From Phoenix dactylifera (lineage: Eukaryota > Streptophyta > Magnoliopsida > Arecales > Arecaceae): DNA of 64,000 bases. The notes under the pieces were generated by a model. It worked only from the letters and a program-made list of their open reading frames with translations, had not been told where the DNA came from and did not search any database. This document shows, in pieces, positions 19,801-47,125 of the stretch. Each line of letters starts with the position of its first letter. The first letter of the stretch is position 1. The stretch is from assembly GCF_009389715.1 (NCBI RefSeq), contig NW_024067979.1, positions 212,501 to 276,500 of the forward strand, given 5' to 3'. Made by a program: the position numbers and the translations under genes.

Positions 19801-21768
19801 CTTATGATTGGATCATTCTCTGTCAGGTACTATCACCTAGTGGCTCAGAAATTTGCAATCTCCATTGCACTTTGAAGTTTTAAGAAGTAAGAATACTCCT
19901 TTTATCCTTAATTAGCCAAAATATTTTATGCTTATACTTTTGACTTAAAGTCCAAATTACTACTTACATTGTCATTCTTCAACAAAATTCACTGCTAGTG
20001 ATTCCAAGAATGGACATTTGATGAATATTGAAGCATGTTTTAATTAAAAGATCTTACACCTTATTGTCATTTTAGTGTTGCATACTATTGTTACTAATAC
20101 TTCCAATATTGCCAAGAAGATATTGGGTACTCAACATCGTATTTGGCTAATATTGGGAACTTGACAATGTAATATGTTTTGAGTTTTTATACAGCAGCCC
20201 AACATAGAAAAGTTCTGGCTGGTTTTATATAACATGTACATGGCTTGGGTTGGTCATATTGTACCCATCAAACATGCAATGCATTCATAAAGATTTGTTT
20301 ATTATAAATTGGCTGAATAGTGTGGGGTAGAATATGAATCTTATGTTTTTTCATATTATTAAAATTCTCACGATGTGGGCACCTCAAAATCCTCTTAGAA
20401 TACCTCCTTGCAGTACAGGAGGTACTGCATTTAAATCCCCCACTGGTTCCCTAGAGATCCAATGAAGAATAATGTTGGTGGCTAGTTCTTGTTGGCCTGA
20501 GCGTAGTTAGTGCAAGCAACAAAGTGCAGTTAGGCACAGGTTTACATAATGCAGCACAATGTATGGCTTCATGCAATTTATAAACAAAATGAATTTTAGA
20601 GCAAACGTTATTTTCCTGCCTTTGGTTTCTTTTACAAAAACCTTTTTTTTCCCTTTTTTTTTGGAGCTAGGTCTCTAACAACTGCCTCAACTCAGCAGGA
20701 TAAATCCCTCCCCATACGGTAGATCTAACTGAGGGCCTCCCCCTATTTGCTGCTGTTAGAGATTGATTCACTGATTTGATTTGTTGTGGGGATCTATTAA
20801 TATCACTAATTGAGCGAAAGAATATAAAGTGAAATATAATATTTTCTAATTTAGTGAAATAGTTTACTGATGCCATCCCTCTCCTTCATCTCGATCGTAA
20901 TTACGATACATGCCCCCTGGACCTTATTAATCTGACAAATAATGTGCATACAACGTAACCATTACATGATTCAAACTTTAGTCTTCATGATCCGAGCATT
21001 GGGAATTTCCAAACAATCTCACAATTTTTTTAAGAGAAATCTCAGTGCGCTATTACTTTTATTCCTTTAGAAATAATCAATTTTCATATTTATTACAGAA
21101 TCATATGAGCATGTTCTAAGAGCTAAAAGGAAAGAACCTGTAGGTGCTAATGGATTTACAATATAAAATCGAGATACTGGAGATAAATAAGGTAATAAAT
21201 GTTCCTATTAATCTGATCTTATTTCCAATAGAAAGAGAGTCCTACAAGATCTGGAAGTTGAAATTTAAAAAGAAAGGAGATCATGGTACGTAGGCAAATT
21301 TTTCCTGAGATCATGGCAAAAATGCTGCTACCTAGTTAGGAATGGGAAGAGTAAGTTTATACATGGTAATGGCAATTTCTTTATTTACTATCATAATAGC
21401 CATCCATCAAATCCTTGATTCTATCAAATAATTGACATTCATTAGACATAGAGTTCTATTAAGAAGACTAGCTTGACCAAATACAGAGAAAGTATACAAT
21501 AAAGAGTACATGGGTCTTCTAAGACTAGCCTAAAAATGGTCAAGAACATAGACGAAACCAGTAAAGCCTGTGATCCATTTAAGAACTGTGCAAGCTGGTG
21601 AAAATGCTTATAGTTCTATCAAATAATTGCCTCTTATTGCATGCCTTGTCTAATATCTCATTGTTTTTCTAATATGCTTTACAAGGTGTTTTATTCATAT
21701 GGATGAAATCATGACTTATGATTGACAAAATGTTTCATGTCTTTGTTGTTGCATTGTAAGAAGAACAA
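19801..21768. other. Harbinger internal non-coding region
   Basis: About 2 kb between the palindrome block and ORF1. No coding region or further repeat structure is evident. It should contain the promoter of ORF1. Confidence 0.5.
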
Positions 21769-22848
21769 ATGTCTAAGAAGAGCCAACATACCCTTGCTGG
21801 TCCATCAACCCAAGATGAGAAGAAGAGGAAGGCCATTTGGAATGAAAAATTGATAGAGGAGTTTATCGATATATGTATTGGTGAAGTTGAAGCTGGTAAT
21901 TGCCCAGGAACACATTTCAATAGGTTAAGGTGGGCCAATATAATTAAGAAATTCAATGAGAAGATTGGAAATCAATATGACTACAAAAAATTTACAAATA
22001 AGTGGGATAACCTGAAAGCAAATTGGAGCATTTGGATGAAATTGGTGGGAAAGGAAACAGGGCTTGGATGGGATCCTGTTAGAAATACAATAGATGCACC
22101 AGATGCATGGTGGGAAAAAAAATTGCAGGTACACGTGCCACTAGTTTAATATTTGTAAGATTTTTTATACTAACCTATAAACTACTATTGACAACTATAT
22201 ATTGTTAACTTGCAGGAGATTCCTGATGTAGCTAAGTTTCGAGAACGTGGTCTACAACATGCCATAAAATTGGATAGGTTATTTAGAGGTACTAGTGCCA
22301 CTGGGGAGGGGGCCTGGGCACCAGCTTTACTGGTGCAGGAGGATGTTGAGGACACAATTGAAGTATATGAGAGGTTGGATGGGGTTAATAATGATACATT
22401 TGAGGGCTTAGGTGACTCAGATGAGGACCATCATATGATTGCATATAAAATTGATGATGTTCCCACTGATAATTTTAATGTTAACCTTACTCTTGCATCT
22501 GATGCTATCCAAGAGAGAGGAAAGAAAAGAGTTAGCTCTACTTTGCATGATAAGAAATGCAAGAAGGTTGAGGGTGCTGCACAACTATCTCAGTAATTGA
22601 GTCGTCTTATTGATGCAGTGGAGAAGAAAAGTACAGTGCCATCCAAGATGATTGATAAACCTGGACGTAGTATCGATGAGGTGATGGACGAAGTGCATAT
22701 GATGCCTGAGATGGTAGTACAACCTGAACTGCTTTTGATTGCTGCTGAGGTGCTCCTTAAAAGAGAACATCGAGAGATGTTTATGGCACTCCGAGATACC
22801 AATCTTCGAATTGAATGGCTCAAGCGAATGTCAAACTTACATAAGTAG
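21769..22848 (+). CDS. Harbinger ORF1: Myb/SANT-like DNA-binding protein (one stop)
   Basis: Exon 1 (21769-22128) and exon 2 (from 22216) join phase 0 across an 87-bp GT-AG intron: AWWEKKLQ then EIPDVAKF. The N-terminal part (KRKAIWNEKLIEEFIDICIG, RWANIIKKFNEK, FTNKWDNLKANW) is the Myb/SANT-like trihelix domain typical of plant Harbinger ORF1 and of its host-derived relatives. The middle is acidic (GLGDSDEDHH) and followed by a basic KKRVSSTLHDKKCKK stretch that may be a nuclear signal. The C-terminal part (SRLIDAVEKK, SIDEVMDEV, REMFMALRDTNLRIEWLKRM) is also typical. One TAA at 22594-22596 separates the C-terminal 83 codons, otherwise in frame. In this superfamily ORF1 binds the ends and helps bring the transposase to the nucleus. 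Classified from family resemblance. Confidence 0.8.
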
Positions 22849-23094
22849 TTGTTGACGTACTATTATAGCAATATGTTTTGTAGTTTTAATTATGAACTTC
22901 TATTATAGAATGATGATGGACTATATGTATTTGTGGTATCTCTTGGATAATGTATCGTGGATGCTATTGATTTTATGGATATTATAGATGTTATGATTTT
23001 GTGATATTATATGTATTTGCATTATATGTTTATATATCATTTGTTTTATTTGCTACAGATGTTTTATTTTTTGCATAATATGTTTTCTACAGGT

Positions 23095-24454
23095 ATGGGC
23101 AGCATTGACAATAGTTCTGAGGAAAATTATTCCAGTGAAGATGAGATAGTTGATGATGATAATTATAATATTCTACTAACTGCAACTGTTGGTATGGTTA
23201 CTGAATATTACACAAAATATATTGAAAAGGAGCCTTGTAGGACCTCTTATCAAACCGGATACAAGTTTGTATCAGAAATTTTATATGGCAATCCATATAG
23301 ATGCCAACAACAATTTTGAATGGAAAAACATGTATTTATTAATCTGTGCATGGAATTGAAAATCAAATATGGTTTAAAGGCTTCTAGATATATTCCTGTT
23401 GAGGAGCTGGTATCTATGTTTTTGATGATTCTAGGACATGGGTTTGGGAATAGGATGGTTCAAGAAAGATTTCAACATTCCAGAGAAACAGTTAGTAGAT
23501 ATTTCACCCATGTTTTAAATGCTGTTTTAAGGATGTCCAAGGATATTATTAGCCCGCTGGATAAAGAGTTCAAAAATATTCCAAGTAAAATCCGCAATGA
23601 TCATCGTTGGTGGCCTTATTTTAAGGACTGCATTTGAGCAATTGATGGCACCCATATACCAGTGAAAATTTCTCCATCCAAACAAGTACCATATATTGGC
23701 CGAAAAGGGATTCCTACACAAAATGTTATGGCTTATTGTGATTTTGATATGCGTTTCACTTTTGTTTGTGCTGGATGGAAAGGTACTGCTCATGATACTC
23801 GTACTTTTTTAGATGCTATACACAGAAAAGAGCTCCAATTTCCACACCCACCTAGAGGTATGCATTTTAATTAAATATATTATAATATAGACGTATGCAT
23901 ATTAATTAAATATATTATGATCGCAAGTATACTTTTTTAACTTTCATTAAATATATTAAAATACTAACTCATATATATATATATATGCAGGTAAATATTA
24001 TTTGGTGGATGCAGGATATCCTCACATGTTGGGATATATGGGGCCTTACAAAGGGGAGAGATATCATTTACCAGATTTTCGACGTGGAAGTCAACCAAGG
24101 GGTATGCATGAAATCTTTAATCATGCACATTCCTCCCTGAGATGCACTATTGAGAGGACATTCGGATGCTGGAAAAGTAGATGGAGAATGTTGAGTACCA
24201 TACCCAACTTTTCTTATCATAAACAAGTCCAAATTGTGGTGGCTTCCATGGCTATTCATAATTTTATTAGAAATCATGCAATCAAAGATTTGGAGTTCTA
24301 GCCTTATGATGATAATGAGGATCTACTTCCTTCTGATTGTTTAGAGATTAATGAACCACAGGAAGAACTGAGTGCAGAGCAAAGCCAAATATTGGGTAAC
24401 CGTGAGATGGATATTCTGCGTGATCATATTGCTTCTCAACTTATAGCTCGTTGA
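23095..24454 (+). pseudogene. Harbinger DDE transposase, with in-frame stops
   Basis: Exon 1 is 23095-23857 and exon 2 is 23991-24454, joined at CCA CCT AGA G|GT across a 133-bp intron. The helix-turn-helix part has LKASRYIPVEELVSMFL and RFQHSRETVSRYF. The DDE triad of DDE_Tnp_4 is visible: AIDGTHIPV (first D), KYYLVDAGYPHMLGYMGPY (second D) and SSLRCTIERTFGCWKSRW (E), then SMAIHNFIRNHA. Three in-frame stops (23317-23319, 23635-23637, about 24299-24301) interrupt it, but no frameshift does, so decay is slight. The enzyme would cut and rejoin DNA at TTA targets together with the ORF1 protein. The acidic start (GSIDNSSEENYSSEDE) is an inferred N terminus. Confidence 0.85.
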
Positions 24455-26900: not shown

Positions 26901-27320
26901 TTAATAGACCAGATCCTTGCCGGCATGGAGGCCTCGGAAATAAGCCTGGGGATTGCTCTCGAAGGAGGCCCTCGGCATGAGGGGGCCACCCCTCCCAGGG
27001 GCCTTCATCATCTTGCCGGCGGCCCGACCTCCGTTGCGGCAGCAGCAGCAGCGGCAGCAGTAGAAAAGGAAAAGGACGGCGAGGGCGACGGGGAGGACGA
27101 CAGTGAGCCCGACGTGGACCCACCGGTGCAGAGTTTCGGCCCGGGTCGCCGGCGGGAAGAGCTGGTCCACCTTCTCGGTGAAGAACCGGCCGAAATCATC
27201 CAGAAGGTGGAGTAGTTGGACAAATTTCTCCTTCAAGAACTCTATCACGTTCCTCTTGATTTCTTCCGCTCCCTCTACGTCTGTCACCTTCTCCACCAAA
27301 AGCTTCCTTGCTCCCTCCAT
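26901..27320 (-). CDS. Small single-pass membrane protein with MKAPGR tail
   Basis: A single exon codes for 139 residues. Residues 1-69 look amphipathic and charged (GAEEIKRNVIEFLKEKFVQL). Residues about 70-88 (VGLTVVLPVALAVLFLFYC) form one membrane segment, followed at once by CCRCCCC, a likely palmitoylation or metal-binding cluster. The tail carries a motif I recall from many small uncharacterised plant proteins: MKAPGR-GG-MPR-FESNP-YFR-LH. The biochemical role is not known to me. The coding region is GC-rich, unlike the flanks, as is common for monocot single-exon genes. A related tail occurs at 29216-29311 on the opposite strand. The start is the first ATG of the frame, with a TTATAA-like element about 55 bp upstream. 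Confidence 0.75.
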   Translation of the reverse strand: MEGARKLLVEKVTDVEGAEEIKRNVIEFLKEKFVQLLHLLDDFGRFFTEKVDQLFPPATRAETLHRWVHVGLTVVLPVALAVLFLFYCCRCCCCRNGGRAAGKMMKAPGRGGPLMPRASFESNPQAYFRGLHAGKDLVY

Positions 27321-28606
27321 CTCTCTCTCTCCCTCTCTCGCTCTCGCTGTGGGGAAGGGAAAGGGCTCGGTGAATTATAAGGAAATGGAGGTCTACGAAT
27401 ACATTGTTCATTTGCATCTCCCTTTTTTTCTTTCTTACGATAAAGGTCGAAGACTAGGAGTCAAGATGAGGTGTTCTTTTCTATCCACGCACCCACGGAG
27501 CATGCACCCAGTTTATGGCCTCTCAGTGAAGGTGTAGAGCCCGCATGTCAATAGTGGGGTGTGGGGATGGGCGAACCACGGTGGTTGGTGTAATGCTGAT
27601 CTTATGAGCAGTGGTATTTGGTCGCCGTTTGGCGTGGAGTTATGACGATGGCTTGGTTGTCGTTTAACTCGAGGGCGTCCGTTTGCCGCGCGGAGCATTC
27701 CGAGCTCACGAGCTTATCGCTCTCATAAATGTCTTTGGATCCCGATGGGGTTAATCCTGTAACCACTTCAAAAAGATCTACAAACAGTTTGTATGCTGCT
27801 GTGGTATGTTTACATTACCAGAGAAAAAAATCCCACGCCATGATCAATTTCTTGTTCTCTTGCCGTCTCTCGACTCGGTGCTGACTCAATCGGAAAAAGG
27901 AGCATTCCCTGAAGCACCTAAGCCATTGTTGATTAGTCTAGTAGACAGATGACTATCACATCTACTTTTTGATAGCAGTAACTTAGTTGTCTCCTTTTCA
28001 AAAAAAATAAATAGATGGCTAATTCAATATCACCTCCTTTGCCCATCAACTGGGTTCTGCAGGCTATGGCAAGCTTGTCGTGTTAAGAGTTTGGAGTTCA
28101 TCATGACCATGTAAAATAGCAAGGCCTAGACAATCCCATAGTACAGTAAATGACCATTCGCCAGTTTCACGGACCTCGAGTCGTCCTTCTTTACGGGTGG
28201 TCGAGTAGTCTCCGCAAGACTACCCATGATTAATTTCTCTTCCAATTCCCCATGCGAGTTCATCATTCCACACGCCACAAGCGGGTTCCCATGCGTATTC
28301 GTTGTTCCGTACGCTACAAGCCGTTTCCCAGAATTAAAGCCCAATAGAACAGAATAAATGGACTCCGTATATGATTTAAAAAAAGGCAACCATGTTGCAA
28401 CCCTGGACATAATCCTACTATGTTCATTTGAAACGAAAATTTTACCGACAGTTAGAATAGGTAAATCTTATGAAGGAACAAAGAAAGGATTTGATGGAGA
28501 TGAAAAGAGGATGCAAGAACCAGAAAGTCTCAACTCTTCATGCATATATATTCTTTTTTTTTATTTTTTTATTTTTTTAAAATTACGAAATAGATGGAAG
28601 TTATGG

Positions 28607-29084: not shown

Positions 29085-29311
29085 ATGGGAATCTCTGGGA
29101 GTAAGAAGAGCCAGGAAGGGAAAGATGAGGCTTCTGCAGTCAAAATTATAGCTGTTGGTGCTGCTATTTTGCTTCTGCTGTGGGGATCTCTGTCAGGGGA
29201 GGTAAAACGAAACTGATGAAGGCTCCTGGAAGGAAGGGGGAGTACATTCCGAGGGCACTTTTTGAAAGAGATCCAAAGACTTATTTCAGCCGACTCCATC
29301 GTGATGGCTGA
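29085..29311 (+). pseudogene. Frameshifted MKAPGR-type small membrane protein
   Basis: The first frame (ATG 29085) gives MGISGSKKSQEGKDE, then a membrane segment AVKIIAVGAAILLLLWG, and stops after 43 codons. An overlapping frame one base off continues GGKTKLMKAPGRKGEYIPR and FERDPKTYFSRLH to a TGA at 29309-29311. The tail matches the motif of the gene at 26901-27320 (MKAPGR, PR, FE, P, YF, LH). A membrane segment followed by this tail is the family's normal order, so the two frames look like one gene broken by a single-base change between about 29180 and 29206. A sequencing error or a real pseudogene are both possible; a stand-alone 43-residue protein is less likely. Confidence 0.6.
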
Positions 29312-29759
29312 TAGCAGAAAAATAATATCCCTCATCTATCTATCTATCTATCTATTTGTGTATATATCTGTCTGTCTGTCTATCCATCTTCCTATAATGA
29401 ATCTCCACCGATCACCTTCACCTTTACATATGTATTGCCACAAAGTTTCTGGTTTGGCTTTGAGTTTTGTTCTTTAAATGGTGGCAAAGTTTGCTCTTTT
29501 ACAGAGAACAGGGCTTTTTCATTTAGAGTGCTGTCACTACAGAAAAAAGGACCTATCCCGACGCTTTTATGGATCTTTAGCAACGCTTTTTAGCATCACC
29601 AAAGCATCGGCAATACCGGAGTGGAAAAAGTTTTTTCCGACACTCTTAAGAAGCATCGTAAAAGATCGATTTTTAGTGACGCTTAAAAACTTCGCTAAAA
29701 AAGATATTTATGAAAGAACGCCCAATTCAAAGTTTTAAAGGGTCAATTGAGGAGGATTT

Positions 29760-30011
29760 TAGGGAAGATATGGAGGAAATCTGGTCGGATCTTGCTTTCC
29801 ATGTGGTGGGATTTGGGTGGGGCTTCGTTACATCTACCTCCCTCCCTTTCCCAGGGAATCCATTATATAGAGAAAACACCCCTATAACCCAACCCCACAC
29901 CTCCTCTTATTCCATACCCCTCCCTCTTCTTGTTCTTCTTTGGAGTACTCAGCCACCATGGCTGTTGCTGCAGAGACTCAGTTCCATGTCTTAGCTGTGG
30001 ATGACATTTAG
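29760..30011 (+). pseudogene. Captured 5' fragment of a type-A response regulator
   Basis: ATG at 29958 opens [16 protein letters not shown], the N terminus of monocot type-A response regulators (cytokinin signalling), with the conserved acidic DD of the receiver domain, then stops at once. Upstream lie a TATA-like ATTATATAG near 29862 and a CT-rich leader, so promoter and 5' UTR seem to have been taken along. The junction with the next captured piece is near 30005. The left limit of the captured piece is a guess. Confidence 0.7.
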
Positions 30012-30407
30012 GAAACTGACGCGAAGCTTGACATCAAGGACGCGGCAGAAGACGTGGGGAGGCACATCGTAACGGAGGAGCCCAACGCCGCCGCCATCTC
30101 CAAGCTGCTCGAGATGCCCCTGCGGCAAGTACACCACCACTCTCCCCTTCCTCGGCAAGGATATCAGCGGCCCCGCGCAGGCGTGCCAGAGCTCCAGGCA
30201 CACCAGCGGCGAGGCCCCAGAAGAAGAAGAACCTCCAACTACTCCGCCCGACGCCGCTGTCGGCGGCGGAGGATGAGGGGGCTGCCGCCGGTGGTGGTGG
30301 TGGGTTTGCGGTGGCTGGAGTGAGGTCGGGTGCTCCGCCGCCTCCTCCTCCTCCTCGATCATGTTCAGATCGATCCCCATCCTCTCCCTCCCAACACCCC
30401 ACGCCAA
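30008..30407 (-). pseudogene. Captured first-exon fragment of an ARF3-like gene
   Basis: On the minus strand the frame reads MGIDLN from 30380, then an acidic stretch, His- and Pro-rich low-complexity sequence, then [30 protein letters not shown] and [13 protein letters not shown]. This is the N-terminal region just before the B3 DNA-binding domain of auxin response factors; an N terminus opening MGIDLN and continuing acidic fits the ARF3/ETTIN group. It ends near KLRVS at 30025, where a GTCAGT could be the original first-intron donor. The B3 and later domains are absent. Sequence up to about 30560 may be the donor gene's 5' UTR. Confidence 0.75.
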
Positions 30408-30735
30408 AGAGAAGCAGAAAGAAGAACGGAGAAGCCCAAAGGTGCAGTAGATAAAGAAAAGGGGAGAACGGGTGGGGTCTCCGGTGTGGGACTAAAAGAA
30501 GAACTTCGGCGGAGGAAGCAATGCTGCGTGGATGGAGCGGCTGGGTGAAAAAGGAGGGATCGGGAGAGTTGGGCGCCTTTTGGCCTCCGACGACGCTTTA
30601 AAGCGTCGTCGTATCTAAATTTCACCCAACTCTATCACAAAGCGTCGTCGAATTTCGGCCTCCGCTCGAAATTCGCCGACGCTTTTTGATAGCGTCGGCG
30701 GGGAAGAGTCGGCAAAACCGTATTTTCTTGTAGTG

Positions 30736-31140
30736 TGTAGATTACCATTCGCTTGATTCTTCTCATGGTCTCATTACTTTGTGAGTTGGGCAATACTTAC
30801 GGGGTAATTTCGGGTGGCATGTATATTGTAAAGAGCTTAATGTAAACAACTTCTCAATTAAATCAGGTTTTGCTGGGTACTTGCCGTATATAAAATCCTG
30901 ATGATATGGTTATAAGTAGGTTTATTTATGATCGATATCATATATCCCAAGATGGTGGTGGAGGGCATTGTCTATAAATGAGAGAACTGATCCAAGCGGA
31001 CCATAGCCTAGTAGTTTCATCCCTCTTTCATGGAGAGTAGGTTCCATGCTTGAAGATGGAGGTTTTCATCCGGGTTCAATTTCCTCCCATGTGTTTTGAC
31101 TTTGTTCAAATATTATTAATTTCTAGAGGCGAATGGCAAC
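30736..31140. other. Spacer between CACTA element and tRNA gene
   Basis: No gene. The part at about 30985-31085 has a GGGTTCAATTTCC word resembling a Pol III B box, and could be a degraded SINE, but I did not find a matching A box at normal spacing. Confidence 0.4.
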
Positions 31141-36197: not shown

Positions 36198-37950
36198 TGT
36201 TGACCCCCTAATGGATTTTGATGAATACAAAACACTAGAGTAAAATTCCATTATATCTTAACAATTCGATTGAGGAATTCATGTGTTTTACTTAGAAAAT
36301 TGTTAAGAAATGTCTAGGCAAGTTCCCACAATTTTTATGAATTTATTGAAGAATATTTTGAGCTAAAGAAAAAGTTCAGGGACAGCCGAGACGTCTCCTG
36401 ATAGTTTCAGAGACGTCTCTGGCACAAATAGGAAGAACTGGCACACTTGGAGTCGTCCCCGGCACCTGCCGAGTCGTCCCCGCGTTAGCGGAGTCGACTC
36501 TCTCAGAAGCGGAGTCGACTCTCTCAGTGGCGGCAGAAAGACGTTTCTCAAGGGATATGCGCGAGACGTCCCCCGCTGTACGCGGAGTCGTCCCCGCAAG
36601 CAAAAAGGAGACTCCCCGAGACGTCCCCAAGATGGCGGAGACGGCTCTCTCAGGGTTTTCCAGAGAATGGTTTTTGCGGTGATAAGGAAGCGGAGTCGAC
36701 TCTGAGATAGCGGAGTCGTCCCCACGCATAAAGTGGACACAGGCGGAGACGTCCCCTGAAAGAGCGGAGACGACTCTCTCAGGGAATTCCAGAGGGCAAG
36801 TTTTTCGGAGACAAAGAAGCGGAGTCGTCCCCAAAGAAGCGGAGTCGTCCCCACTCAAAAAGCACAGACAAGGCGAGACGTCCCCGTAAAGTGCCGAGTC
36901 GACCCCAGATAAAGTAAAAAGTAAAATCCTGTAGGTGAGACGTCTCTCGCTGTAGCGGAGACGTCCCCGGAGCGCCTGGGACGCGACTGACAGCTTTTCA
37001 GGTTTGATTTTGAATTTCAAATCCTTCTCTTTTTGTCTCTAACGGCTATATTTGCTTTTTGGGCTATAAAAGGGACCTCTTAAGTGGTTCTCAACAACTC
37101 TTCACCAACCAAAAGCAAAATCATTCAAGAGGGAAGTTAGAAAGAAAAGCTCAAGGGAGTGAGTGCATTCAAGAAAGGAAATCAAGTGCTTTCAAGTCTC
37201 CCAAGCGATTTCAAGCTCAACCACTCTCGTGTGCTCGGGATTCAAAGCTCACACCCAACCATACGCGTCCCACATCGGAAGAATCAACATCTCCCACGCT
37301 TCCAACGGCAAAAAGGGTTCTTCCGATTTTATTGTTTCTCATTGTTATATTTGCTTCTTAAGAGCTTTCAAATCTTTTGTAAAACGTTTGAATATTGAGC
37401 TTGTTTCAGTCAAGGGACTTGGAACAAGGGATAGGGGTCCCAAGCCTAAGTTAAAATTGGGGGGATTGTAGGGTTCGTTGTTAGCCCGGGGTAAAACAAC
37501 GAGTTGGGTAGTTCACTCGAAAAACTACCGGATTGTAGGGTTCGTTGTTAGCCCGGTGTAAAACAACAAGTTGGGTTGTGAGCTTGTAAAACAACCGACT
37601 GTAATCTTGAGGATTATAGTGAAATTCCCAAGAGGTCTTGGGGAGTGGATGTAGGTGCTGGGGTGCACCGAACCACTATATGTCCTTTGTGTTTGTAATG
37701 CCTCTAGTTATTGTCTAACTAACACACTTACTTACTTAGATAAATTGCTTGCTTAATTCTTATCCGCACATCCTTTAGTTGCAAGCATATTTAATCAAGT
37801 CGAAGTCTATACATCAAATCCTTGCTAAGTTTAACTTTCACTGTGCATCTATACAACTTAGCATAGTTAATCAAAAAGTTTTAGAAGTAGCATAAAAGTT
37901 TTGAAAGACCCAATTCACCCCCCCTCTTGGGTTGTATCTACTGGGCAACA
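36198..37950 (+). repeat. 5' LTR of the Copia element
   Basis: 1753 bp. U3 carries a dense array of CG-containing words (36380-36975). A TATA box CTATAAAA lies at 37064-37071. Downstream a 69-bp unit with GTAGGGTTCGTTGTTAGCCC is present twice (about 37466-37600). It ends GGGCAACA at 37950. Confidence 0.95.
36380..36975. promoter_or_regulatory. Array of GACGTC/GTCGAC/GTCGTCCCC words in U3
   Basis: I count about eight GACGTC, four GTCGAC and six GAGTCGTCCCC words in this 600-bp part of the 5' LTR; the 3' LTR repeats it at 45555-46150. GACGTC is the C-box bound by plant bZIP factors. CG-rich palindromic LTR parts are known in Sireviruses. A regulatory role is inferred. Confidence 0.55.
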
Positions 37951-37964: not shown

Positions 37965-38012
37965 AGGTGCTCTAAGACTAATTATTGATCTCACGATCAA
38001 GAGCCAAAGATT

Positions 38013-39203
38013 ATGACAACTCAAATAGATAGTTTTCTAGGAGAAGGACAATTAATTGATACACCTCCACTATTTAATGGCATAAACTATACACATTGGA
38101 AAGCACGCATGCGCATTTTCATACAATCACTTGATTATAATTTATGGAGAGTTATAGTCAATGGAACACACACAAACACTAGTCATAATGAGAAAATGGC
38201 TCAACAAAATTCAAAAGCCATGAACCTATTATATTGTGCATTAGATAGGAATGAGTTTAATTGCATATCTTCTTGCATAACTGCTAAAGACATGTGGAAT
38301 ATGCTAGAGGCTAAATATGAAAGCACTAACATTTTTAGTGAATCTGAAATTAGCTCTAAAGAAAAAGAGAGACAAGGTGATATTGAAAACCTATGCCTTG
38401 TGGCACACAAGGACGAGGTATGTATTGAAATGCAAAGTGTCTCCTCTTCTGAATATGAAGTATATGATAAACTTGAAAATGATTTTACACTTGATGAGTT
38501 ACATGATGCATTTCTTGATTTAATGAAAGAACATAAGAAACTCATTTGTAAAAACAAGAACCTGAAGAATGAAAAGAAAATCCTAGTAAATGAAACTGAA
38601 ATCTTAATTAAGGAAAATAAAGAACTAAATCAGAAAAACCAACTTCTCACTGAAAGCCATGATAAACTTAAGAAAAATAATGAATTGCTTTCAGAAGATA
38701 ACAAAAGATTAACTAAAGAAGTTGACAAATTAAAACCTGTTGTTGAAAGATTTACTTTGAGCTCTGAAAAGTTGAATCTAATGATAAATAATCAAAGAGC
38801 TGAATTTGATAATATTGAATTGGGATGTCAACCTTGGTACACCCAAAAATCTTTCAATAATATGTTTGTTAAAACAGTTTCTAATCATTTTAAAATAGAT
38901 TCTTATATTGCTGATAAACAGGAACAAAGATTATGCAAAATCTCTTCTGTTCCTAAATCTGTACATTGCAAATTTGATAAACCTAAAAGGCAAAAACAGA
39001 AAACTGAAGGGTTATCTACCACTCATGTTAAATCCATGTTTGTTAAATTTAATAAGAAGATGCAGAAATACACTTCTTGTAGTCCTAAAATCTGCAAGCC
39101 TATGGACAAAATAGCTATTAAGAAAATATGGGTTCCAAAAGGAACAATAATAGCTAACCTGCAAGGACCCAAAAGAGCTTGGGTTCCTAAGTTGAAAATC
39201 TAA
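38013..39203 (+). CDS. Gag-like region of the Copia element (fossil)
   Basis: A 396-residue frame begins with PPLFNGINYTHWKARMRIF, the start of the Copia gag domain, followed by a long acidic and lysine-rich coiled coil with ENKELNQKNQLL-type heptads. The end carries WVPKG and RAWVPK words usually seen around the gag-protease border of Sirevirus-type Copia elements. It is the only long coding stretch left in the element. Confidence 0.7.
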   Translation: MTTQIDSFLGEGQLIDTPPLFNGINYTHWKARMRIFIQSLDYNLWRVIVNGTHTNTSHNEKMAQQNSKAMNLLYCALDRNEFNCISSCITAKDMWNMLEAKYESTNIFSESEISSKEKERQGDIENLCLVAHKDEVCIEMQSVSSSEYEVYDKLENDFTLDELHDAFLDLMKEHKKLICKNKNLKNEKKILVNETEILIKENKELNQKNQLLTESHDKLKKNNELLSEDNKRLTKEVDKLKPVVERFTLSSEKLNLMINNQRAEFDNIELGCQPWYTQKSFNNMFVKTVSNHFKIDSYIADKQEQRLCKISSVPKSVHCKFDKPKRQKQKTEGLSTTHVKSMFVKFNKKMQKYTSCSPKICKPMDKIAIKKIWVPKGTIIANLQGPKRAWVPKLKI

Positions 39204-45372: not shown

Positions 45373-47125
45373 TGTTGACCCCCTAATGGATTTTGATGAA
45401 TACAAAACACTAGAGTAAAATTCCATTATATCTTAACAATTCGATTGAGGAATTCATGTGTTTTACTTAGAAAATTGTTAAGAAATGTCTATGCAAGTTC
45501 CCACAATTTTTATGAATTTATTGAAGAATATTTTGAGCTAAAGAAAAAGTTCAGGGACAGCCGAGACGTCTCCTGATAGTTTCAGAGACGTCTCTGGCAC
45601 AAACAGGAAGAACTGGCACACTTGGAGTCGTCCCCGGCACCTGCCGAGTCGTCCCCGCGTTAGCGGAGTCGACTCTCTCAGAAGCGGAGTCGACTCTCTC
45701 AGTGGCGGCAGAAAGACGTTTCTCAAGGGATATGCGCGAGACGTCCCCCGCTGTACGCGGAGTCGTCCCCGCAAGCAAAAAGGAGACTCCCCGAGACATC
45801 CCCAAGATGGCGGAGACGGCTCTCTCAGGGTTTTCCAGAGAATGGTTTTTGCGGTGATAAGGAAGCGGAGTCGACTCTGAGATAGCGGAGTCGTCCCCAC
45901 GCATAAAGTGGACACAGGCGGAGACGTCCCCTGAAAGAGCGGAGACGACTCTCTCAGGGAATTCCAGAGGGCAAGTTTTTCGGAGACAAAGAAGCGGAGT
46001 CGTCCCCAAAGAAGCGGAGTCGTCCCCACTCAAAAAGCACAGACAAGGCGAGACGTCCCCGTAAAGTGCCGAGTCGACCCCAGATAAAGTAAAAAGTAAA
46101 ATCCTGTAGGTGAGACGTCTCTCGCTGTAGCGGAGACGTCCCCGGAGCGCCTGGGACGCGACTGACAGCTTTTCAGGTTTGATTTTGAATTTCAAATCCT
46201 TCTCTTTTTGTCTCTAACGGCTATATTTGCTTTTTGGGCTATAAAAGGGACCTCTTAAGTGGTTCTCAACAACTCTTCACCAACCAAAAGCAAAATCATT
46301 CAAGAGGGAAGTTAGAAAGAAAAGCTCAAGGGAGTGAGTGCATTCAAGAAAGGAAATCAAGTGCTTTCAAGTCTCCCAAGCGATTTCAAGCTCAACCACT
46401 CTCGTGTGCTCGGGATTCAAAGCTCACACCCAACCATACGCGTCCCACATCGGAAGAATCAACATCTCCCACGCTTCCAACGGCAAAAAGGGTTCTTCCG
46501 ATTTTATTGTTTCTCATTGTTATATTTGCTTCTTAAGAGCTTTCAAATCTTTTGTAAAACGTTTGAATATTGAGCTTGTTTCAGTCAAGGGACTTGGAAC
46601 AAGGGATAGGGGTCCCAAGCCTAAGTTAAAATTGGGGGGATTGTAGGGTTCGTTGTTAGCCCGGGGTAAAACAACGAGTTGGGTAGTTCACTCGAAAAAC
46701 TACCGGATTGTAGGGTTCGTTGTTAGCCCGGTGTAAAACAACAAGTTGGGTTGTGAGCTTGTAAAACAACCGACTGTAATCTTGAGGATTATAGTGAAAT
46801 TTCCAAGAGGTCTTGGGGAGTGGATGTAGGTGCTGGGGTGCACCGAACCACTATATGTCCTTTGTGTTTGTAATGCCTCTAGTTATTGTCTAACTAACAC
46901 ACTTACTTACTTAGATAAATTGCTTGCTTAATTCTTATCCGCACATCCTTTAGTTGCAAGCATATTTAATCAAGTCGAAGTCTATACATCAAACCCTTGC
47001 TAAGTTTAACTTTCACTGTGCATCTATACAACTTAGCATAGTTAATCAAAAAGTTTTAGAAGTAGCATAAAAGTTTTGAAAGACCCAATTCACCCCCCCT
47101 CTTGGGTTGTATCTACTGGGCAACA
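45373..47125 (+). repeat. 3' LTR of the Copia element
   Basis: 1753 bp, the same length as the 5' LTR and about 99.7% identical by eye. The TATA box repeats at 46239-46246. The minus-strand open frames in both LTRs come from the repeat array and are not genes. Confidence 0.95.

Follow-up and report, generated by a model that had tools for sequence, protein, structure and literature searches.

A Pack-CACTA transposon of date palm carrying pieces of a response-regulator gene and an auxin response factor gene in opposite orientation

CACTA transposons in which host-gene fragments replace the transposase have been described from Arabidopsis, rice, and maize as Pack-CACTA or Pack-TYPE elements (PMC8903248). 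The date palm element analyzed here resembles them in its CACTA ends, its target site duplication (TSD), its host fragments in place of a transposase, and its related copies, and it resembles the Pack-TYPE elements of maize, where most of the loci lie in Pack-CACTAs, in holding more than one captured locus (PMC8903248). Pack-CACTAs with several captured loci are already known. Tgm-Express1 of soybean is likewise a CACTA element with several unrelated host-gene fragments (PMC1947982). The miR820 CACTA element of rice shares with ours a piece that is similar to a regulatory host gene and could act back on the parent (PMC3459959). The gap-filling, or FoSTeST, Pack-TIRs of animals share filler DNA with microhomology at the breakpoints, which is reported as a signature of theirs, and multiplication by later transposition (PMC8277862).

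The element occupies positions 29535–30735 (1,201 bp) of the window, by which we mean the whole analyzed stretch of 64,000 nucleotides from Phoenix dactylifera. It is a nonautonomous CACTA transposon of the Pack-CACTA kind, bounded by CACTAC termini in inverted orientation (CACTACAGAAAAAAGG from 29535 and CACTACAAGAAAATACGG reading inward from 30735). Its interior consists of a piece of a response-regulator (RR) gene and a piece of an auxin response factor (ARF) gene, arranged as follows:

29532–29534 (direct reading): left TSD, TGT
29535–29550 (+): left terminal inverted repeat, CACTACAGAAAAAAGG
29551–29696: left subterminal region with GACGCTTT-type repeats
29697–29725: scrap of captured ARF intron 1 that precedes the RR piece and ends in the CCAA microhomology
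29722–30006 (+): captured type-A-like RR piece, 282 of 285 bases as in the parent
29864–29869 (+): TATA box of the captured RR promoter, intact in all four full copies
29958–30011 (+): 17-codon open RR frame, with TAG at the capture junction
30001–30020: RR-to-ARF junction, where ATGACA (6-bp microhomology) is followed by TTTAGGAAA and a few bases are deleted at a GAAA repeat
30012–30539 (−): captured ARF piece, comprising the start of intron 1, exon 1, and leader
30021–30380 (−): ARF exon 1, 120 codons from the ATG, open; GT donor (GTCAGT) at 30020
30381–30539 (−): captured ARF leader (5′ of the ATG), 159 bp
30540–30735: right subterminal region with nested inverted repeats, and right terminal inverted repeat (30718–30735)
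30736–30738 (direct reading): right TSD, TGT

The terminal inverted repeats starting with CACTA, the 3-bp duplication (TGT on both sides), and the subterminal repeats in both orientations are those of CACTA (En/Spm) transposons and bear out the preliminary description, made from the window alone, which had claimed a CACTA element with clean ends and a target duplication. A 3-bp TSD and subterminal repeats are typical for CACTA elements in PMC8978399, whereas a 5-nt TSD is stated for the CACTAs of the PMC8903248 set. Allowing at most one mismatch, GACGCTTT or its complement occurs four times in the left 200 bp and five times in the right 160 bp of the element (shuffle means 0.33 and 0.32; none of 1,000 shuffles reached the observed count on either side), and the motif is absent from the two 1-kb flanks. 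The nested inverted repeats of the right end have arms at 30626–30657/30667–30698 and 30588–30599/30600–30611. Alignment of the copies revealed that 33 bp present in the left subterminal region of the other three full copies are missing from the window copy. The element lacks a Transposase_21 of its own, its whole length being made up of the ends and the two gene pieces, and it lies outside any gene identified in the window. An Rfam scan of the window found tRNA only; scans for sigma-70 promoters and terminators, bacterial models that are not applicable to a plant, gave no match.

Several other features of the window were observed. Two ORFs on opposite strands, at 29085–29311 and 26901–27374, share the C-terminal motif MKAPGR...F...YF..LH; the former has a frame change midway, and the CACTA element begins ∼220 bp downstream of it. 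Two near-identical ORFs in direct repeat (36363–37361 and 45538–46536, ∼9.2 kb apart) enclose a copia-type gag at 37989–39203 and, together with it, probably represent an LTR retrotransposon. At 21760–24301, a PIF/Harbinger-like element is made up of two ORFs that share a strand, one Myb/SANT-like and one DDE_Tnp_4.

The RR piece agrees with the preliminary reading of a response-regulator promoter, leader, and first 16 codons on one strand: it spans 285 bp of the plus strand, namely, 236 bp upstream of the ATG, 16 codons, and one further base. Its parent lies at C12:2482502–2482786 (282 of 285 bases identical, 99%), and a genome search in which all eight candidates were scored returned the four element copies, this parent, and three distant matches (71–82%). 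The C12 gene runs on past the captured part with receiver-domain exons, two pieces of which matched Response_reg (E = 6.4e-5 and 4.9e-5), both under the Pfam cutoff. The identity of the piece follows from this parent locus, since the 20- to 21-residue peptide alone had no match in PDB or Pfam. HVLAVDDS, which is contained in the RR frame, is the protein motif on which a degenerate primer for type-A ARRs was based (PMC2809502), and HVLAVDD starts a receiver-domain motif of licorice regulators (PMC10809405). In the element, the frame ends one codon past the junction, with a TAG at 30009–30011. When the four copies are taken together, the RR piece shows 12 substitutions in 1,092 sites against the parent, with an additional 1-base insertion in L009; one A-to-T change is common to all four copies, which fits a single RR capture.

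As had also been described, an ARF first exon lies on the other strand in opposite orientation (minus strand, 30380 to 30021). Its parent lies at C8:15679336–15679871, to which the captured piece is 95.9% identical when gaps are counted. The second half of its frame matches Auxin response factor 1 in PDB (E = 1.7e-14); no Pfam domain was found in the frame, and no relatives were found in the prokaryote and viral collections, as expected for a plant gene. Both pieces have closely related parents in the genome (RR on C12, 99%; ARF on C8, 96%), the absence of which would have spoken against the preliminary description. The presence of the GT donor and of intron 1 sequence in the ARF piece shows that its source was DNA rather than spliced mRNA. 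The 29-bp intron 1 scrap on the far side of the RR piece is 89.7% identical to the ARF parent in the window copy and 96.6% identical in L009.

The ARF parent (L013 and L029 on C8) has an ETTIN-like N-terminal sequence. Of its B3 exons, one piece scored above the Pfam cutoff (E = 2.2e-7) and another below it (E = 0.007). Two perfect 21-base tasiARF sites (AAGGTCTTGCAAGGTCAAGAA) lie at C8:15668259 and 15668031; the captured piece does not contain this sequence, the parent's sites being ∼11 kb away. A C-terminal, PB1-like piece of the parent matched AUX_IAA with E = 5.6e-4 and 20.2 bits, not reaching the Pfam cutoff of 22.7. Arabidopsis ARF3 is not known to have a PB1-like C-terminal exon. The parent of the captured piece combines such an exon with two tasiARF sites. 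The tasiARF sites assign the parent to the ARF3/ARF4 class, and the AUX_IAA-like piece argues against strict ARF3, so the broader class is a safer label than the “ARF3-like” given earlier.

The genome that we searched is the window's own assembly (773 Mb, 2,391 contigs). The first search scored 40 of 454 candidates, and the copy numbers from it are thus lower bounds. We found four full copies, the window copy, L009 (C39), L010 (C11), and L011 (C708), which lie in unrelated flanks, have the CACTA-type ends of the window copy, and carry perfect 3-bp TSDs, each copy its own (TGT, ACT, TTG, and CTT, respectively). Unrelated flanks and separate TSDs imply that the element moved after both captures. 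With host-gene DNA of identified parents between its terminal inverted repeats and with several related copies rather than a single one, the element is a Pack-CACTA. Identity between copies is 96.7–98.9% for the RR piece, 96.6–98.7% for the ARF piece, and 80.0–96.4% for the ends. Ends that diverge more than the captured pieces are not what a simple burst predicts; recombination with other family members is a possible cause.

Other members of the family carry the ARF piece alone. Elements with the same ends and no RR piece include L012 and L014–L016, which hold most of exon 1, and L017, which is partial. In the ARF search, whose query ended in the leader, all 29 candidates were scored (32 rows, 3 being second pieces of one place) and sorted by hand into 4 double-capture elements, 1 parent, 4 ARF-only elements with most of exon 1, 1 partial element (L017), 14 places with the first codons only, and 5 other ARF-like places. 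Nine of the first-codon places were read, and all nine have at least part of the family's right end; the remaining 5 were sorted by likeness alone. The RR promoter is absent from 19 of the 23 ARF-bearing CACTA places, 5 of these 19 having been sorted by likeness only. As a separate observation, a short ARF piece (leader, mostly with first codons, ∼120–215 bp) occurs at 15 further places genome-wide; the 10 of these that were read (L019–L028) all adjoin the family's right end, and their left end is divergent (69–76%) or was not found. The ARF leader, to judge from these sequences, is spread beyond the two-gene element.

Comparison with an ARF-only relative made the second junction readable. L012 retains the ARF-intron stretch across the RR insertion site (TGACATTTAGGAAAGAACGCCCAAC). 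In the double-capture copies, the intron stretch runs to GCCCAA and passes into the RR promoter; GATGACA closes the RR piece, and after it come TTTAGGAAA, a small deletion, and the rest of the ARF intron. The joins overlap by CCAA (4 bp), ATGACA (6 bp), and GAAA (4 bp), and overlaps of at least this length have probabilities of 0.023, 0.0025, and 0.023, respectively, at random joins. All four copies show the second join and three show the first, where L011 carries a deletion. The ARF-side breakpoints are 19 bp apart, a spacing that a single intron break, mended with the RR locus as template, would give. We consider it probable, from the junction sequences, that the RR piece was captured by microhomology-mediated template switching during repair.

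The nesting of the RR piece within the ARF intron is observed directly, and the ARF-only relatives and the divergence of the two pieces suggest that the ARF piece came first and the RR piece second. Summed over the four full copies, the ARF piece shows 67 substitutions against its parent in 2,121 sites; the lower divergence of the RR piece fits an ARF piece that is older in the element, and faster decay of CpG-rich sequence could partly account for the higher ARF value. The junction of the ARF piece with the right CACTA end is common to L012, L014–L016, and the double-capture copies, small deletions aside, and this shared junction indicates that the ARF piece was probably captured once. A tree of the ARF pieces fits a single capture and does not prove it, the case resting mainly on the shared right junction. 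In this tree, a branch with support 91/89, present in 88% of the bootstrap trees, sets the four double-capture copies apart, a grouping equaled in 3 of 500 label shuffles. Support is moderate overall: no fork attains the level that the tool marks with a star, L012 does not resolve as sister of the double-capture copies, and midpoint rooting places the parent beside L012 and the double copies, not outside all elements.

An alternative origin for the RR piece is the published model for Pack-TYPE elements and Arabidopsis Pack-CACTAs (PMC8903248; restated in PMC13317346), in which two neighboring insertions are joined by deletions. Here, two ARF-bearing CACTAs would have inserted in the RR gene and lost their inner ends, after which the outer ends mobilized the interval. 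Two flanking elements could also give what is seen, ARF-intron sequence on both sides of the RR piece with a short stretch present twice. However, two independent deletions would then have to end 19 bp apart in an element of ∼1 kb, for which a hand calculation gives a chance of ∼4%, and the 12.9 kb surrounding the RR parent that were read contain no match to the family's ends longer than 17 bp. We regard tandem insertion as unlikely. That the structure is an assembly artifact or a chance resemblance has practically nothing for it beyond the use of a single assembly, and four full copies with distinct flanks and TSDs, together with parents at 96–99% identity, make it negligible.

The genome has transposase genes elsewhere, with Transposase_21 matches at no fewer than 150 loci (all 150 taken were scored, out of 534 candidates). 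Among 30 transposase loci that were examined, L059 has a left end 79% identical to that of the element family. In L059, a Transposase_21 match with one in-frame TAG lies at about 1501–2127, ∼1.3 kb from the family-like left end (7–189). By its left end and this match, L059 is a candidate relative of the transposase source. Four longer relatives were searched for an autonomous partner, without success: L062–L064, 5.2-kb elements with their own TSDs, have the family's right end but match none of nine transposase ORFs from this genome, and L065 likewise has no match; as a positive control, the same search matched 30 of 30 transposase loci. L062, L063, and L064 have TSDs TGA, CAT, and AAG and share an internal sequence different from that of the two-gene element; they are perhaps another Pack-CACTA family.

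The ARF piece shows signs of decay. Among its transitions relative to the parent, 56 of 61 are of the C-to-T type (in addition to 27 transversions), in a count that covers five of the eight elements, enters shared changes repeatedly, and would include some C-to-T excess at the 64% GC of the piece. These differences look like those expected of methylated, silenced sequence. In the exon, 12 changes separate the window copy from the parent, 8 of them synonymous and 4 nonsynonymous, where ∼30% synonymous would be expected without selection; 6 of 15 changes are synonymous in L010 and 9 of 19 in L011. The excess could stem from constraint on the parent lineage or from CpG third-position changes, with selection a further possibility. 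The frame is open from the ATG into the intron, with the GT donor kept, in the window copy (as had been noted; 120 codons), L009, L010, and L012; L011 has two stops, and L014, L015, and L016 have frameshifts.

We found the antisense geometry to be as first described: the captured promoter, whose TATA box is kept in 4/4 copies, faces the ARF leader and exon 1, and transcription from the TATA box at 29864 would run antisense to both. Of the 21-mers in the leader and exon 1 of the ARF parent, the window copy matches 283 of 507 exactly, and for the RR piece the figure is 202 of 265, so small RNAs from this copy could act on either parent. The 236-bp promoter also contains six copies of (A/G)GAT(T/C), the core motif of type-B regulators, against 1.9 in simple base shuffles, of which 22 in 1,000 had as many; this is a weak hint of a cytokinin response. 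All this would suit an active locus in which a cytokinin-type promoter makes RNA antisense to ARF and lowers ARF in trans, through antisense or small RNA. As precedents, the literature describes miR820, which a rice CACTA element produces from a DRM2-like piece and which lowers DRM2 (PMC3459959), and maize gene pieces in Helitrons, Pack-MULEs, and Sireviruses, not CACTAs, that are reservoirs of siRNA (PMC13317346). An effect on the ARF parent is, by analogy, possible.

However, most of what bears on this regulatory step is unfavorable. The captured promoter reaches only 236 bp upstream of the ATG, the ARF piece differs from its parent largely by C-to-T-type changes such as methylated DNA would show, and two stops interrupt the ARF frame of L011, one of the full copies. 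Since 19 of the 23 ARF-bearing CACTA places are without the promoter, small RNAs need not depend on it. Within the ARF piece, inverted repeats do not exceed 16 nt at 81% (the long ones lie in the right end), and the RNA of 30012–30539 (+) folds no better than shuffled sequences (z = 0.65; 77 of 100 shuffles at least as stable); the piece is unlike a pre-miRNA and lacks a stable foldback of the miR820 type. A plus-strand message would carry the 17-codon frame and then a stop. Overall, the preliminary interpretation is supported in part: an active antisense locus seems improbable to us, and a portable, cytokinin-responsive antisense cassette directed at a tasiARF-regulated ARF, with four copies feeding small RNAs onto the parent, would be a long shot. 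If true, it would have a transposable element link the cytokinin and auxin pathways. A new chimeric gene, in which the ARF frame is transcribed from its own leader or from a start nearby and gives a truncated ARF N terminus or splices to exons downstream, has in its favor the frame that is open with its donor GT in four elements, and the fragments of Tgm-Express that are spliced as exons (PMC1947982). Yet the stops in L011, the frameshifts in L014–L016, and a piece that ends before the parent's B3 exons and carries no Pfam domain in its frame make it very improbable. We did not accept a role for the open frame, as a frame that is ∼3% diverged may stay open without selection.

The reading that we prefer is that of a nonautonomous Pack-CACTA loaded in two captures, then moved, and now most likely a silenced passenger without function, and we think it highly likely as a whole. 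In the first step, the 5′ part of an ARF3/ARF4-class gene, from its leader through exon 1 into intron 1, was taken up by a CACTA element, as the parent gene and the shared right junction show. Into the captured ARF intron of one descendant, 285 bp of the type-A-like RR gene (promoter, leader, and 16 codons) would then have entered, likely through repair of an intron break in which synthesis switched at CCAA to the RR locus as template and came back to the element at ATGACA. Transposase presumably supplied in trans would have moved the double-loaded element to at least four sites, where the copies and their TSDs are seen today. At present, the element is most likely a silenced and decaying passenger without host function. 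Relative to the preliminary description, the analysis adds the RR stop after the junction, the extra scrap of ARF intron left of the RR piece, and the four full copies.

Compared with known systems, the element stands apart in several respects. Tgm-Express1 is 5.7 kb long, holds five fragments, lies in an F3H intron, and has demonstrated chimeric transcripts (PMC1947982), whereas the element here measures 1.2 kb, carries a promoter, lies outside any identified gene, and is known from sequence alone. miR820 arises from a DRM2-like foldback and is shown to lower DRM2 (PMC3459959); the ARF piece has no strong foldback. The element also makes it possible to test concretely whether antisense or small RNAs against the parent arise where a captured promoter points at a captured exon. 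In the open-licence PMC literature, no title or abstract opening on CACTA elements with ARF3 or RR, on antisense or small RNA from CACTA fragments, or on date palm CACTAs concerned this element. The element is a two-step Pack-CACTA, and finding the donors, an ARF-only relative of the acceptor, and the products together in one genome gives the set unusual value. The FoSTeST Pack-TIRs are animal cases (PMC8277862); ours is a plant CACTA with the second capture nested in the first. Gene pickup by Pack-CACTAs has often been inferred from finished elements, and here the order and the junctions can be read rather directly. In contrast to the elements of PMC8903248, the second junction is readable base by base, with the donors, an ARF-only relative, and four products at hand, and these junctions point to microhomology-mediated template switching in repair rather than to the fusion of neighboring insertions in that paper's tandem-insertion model.
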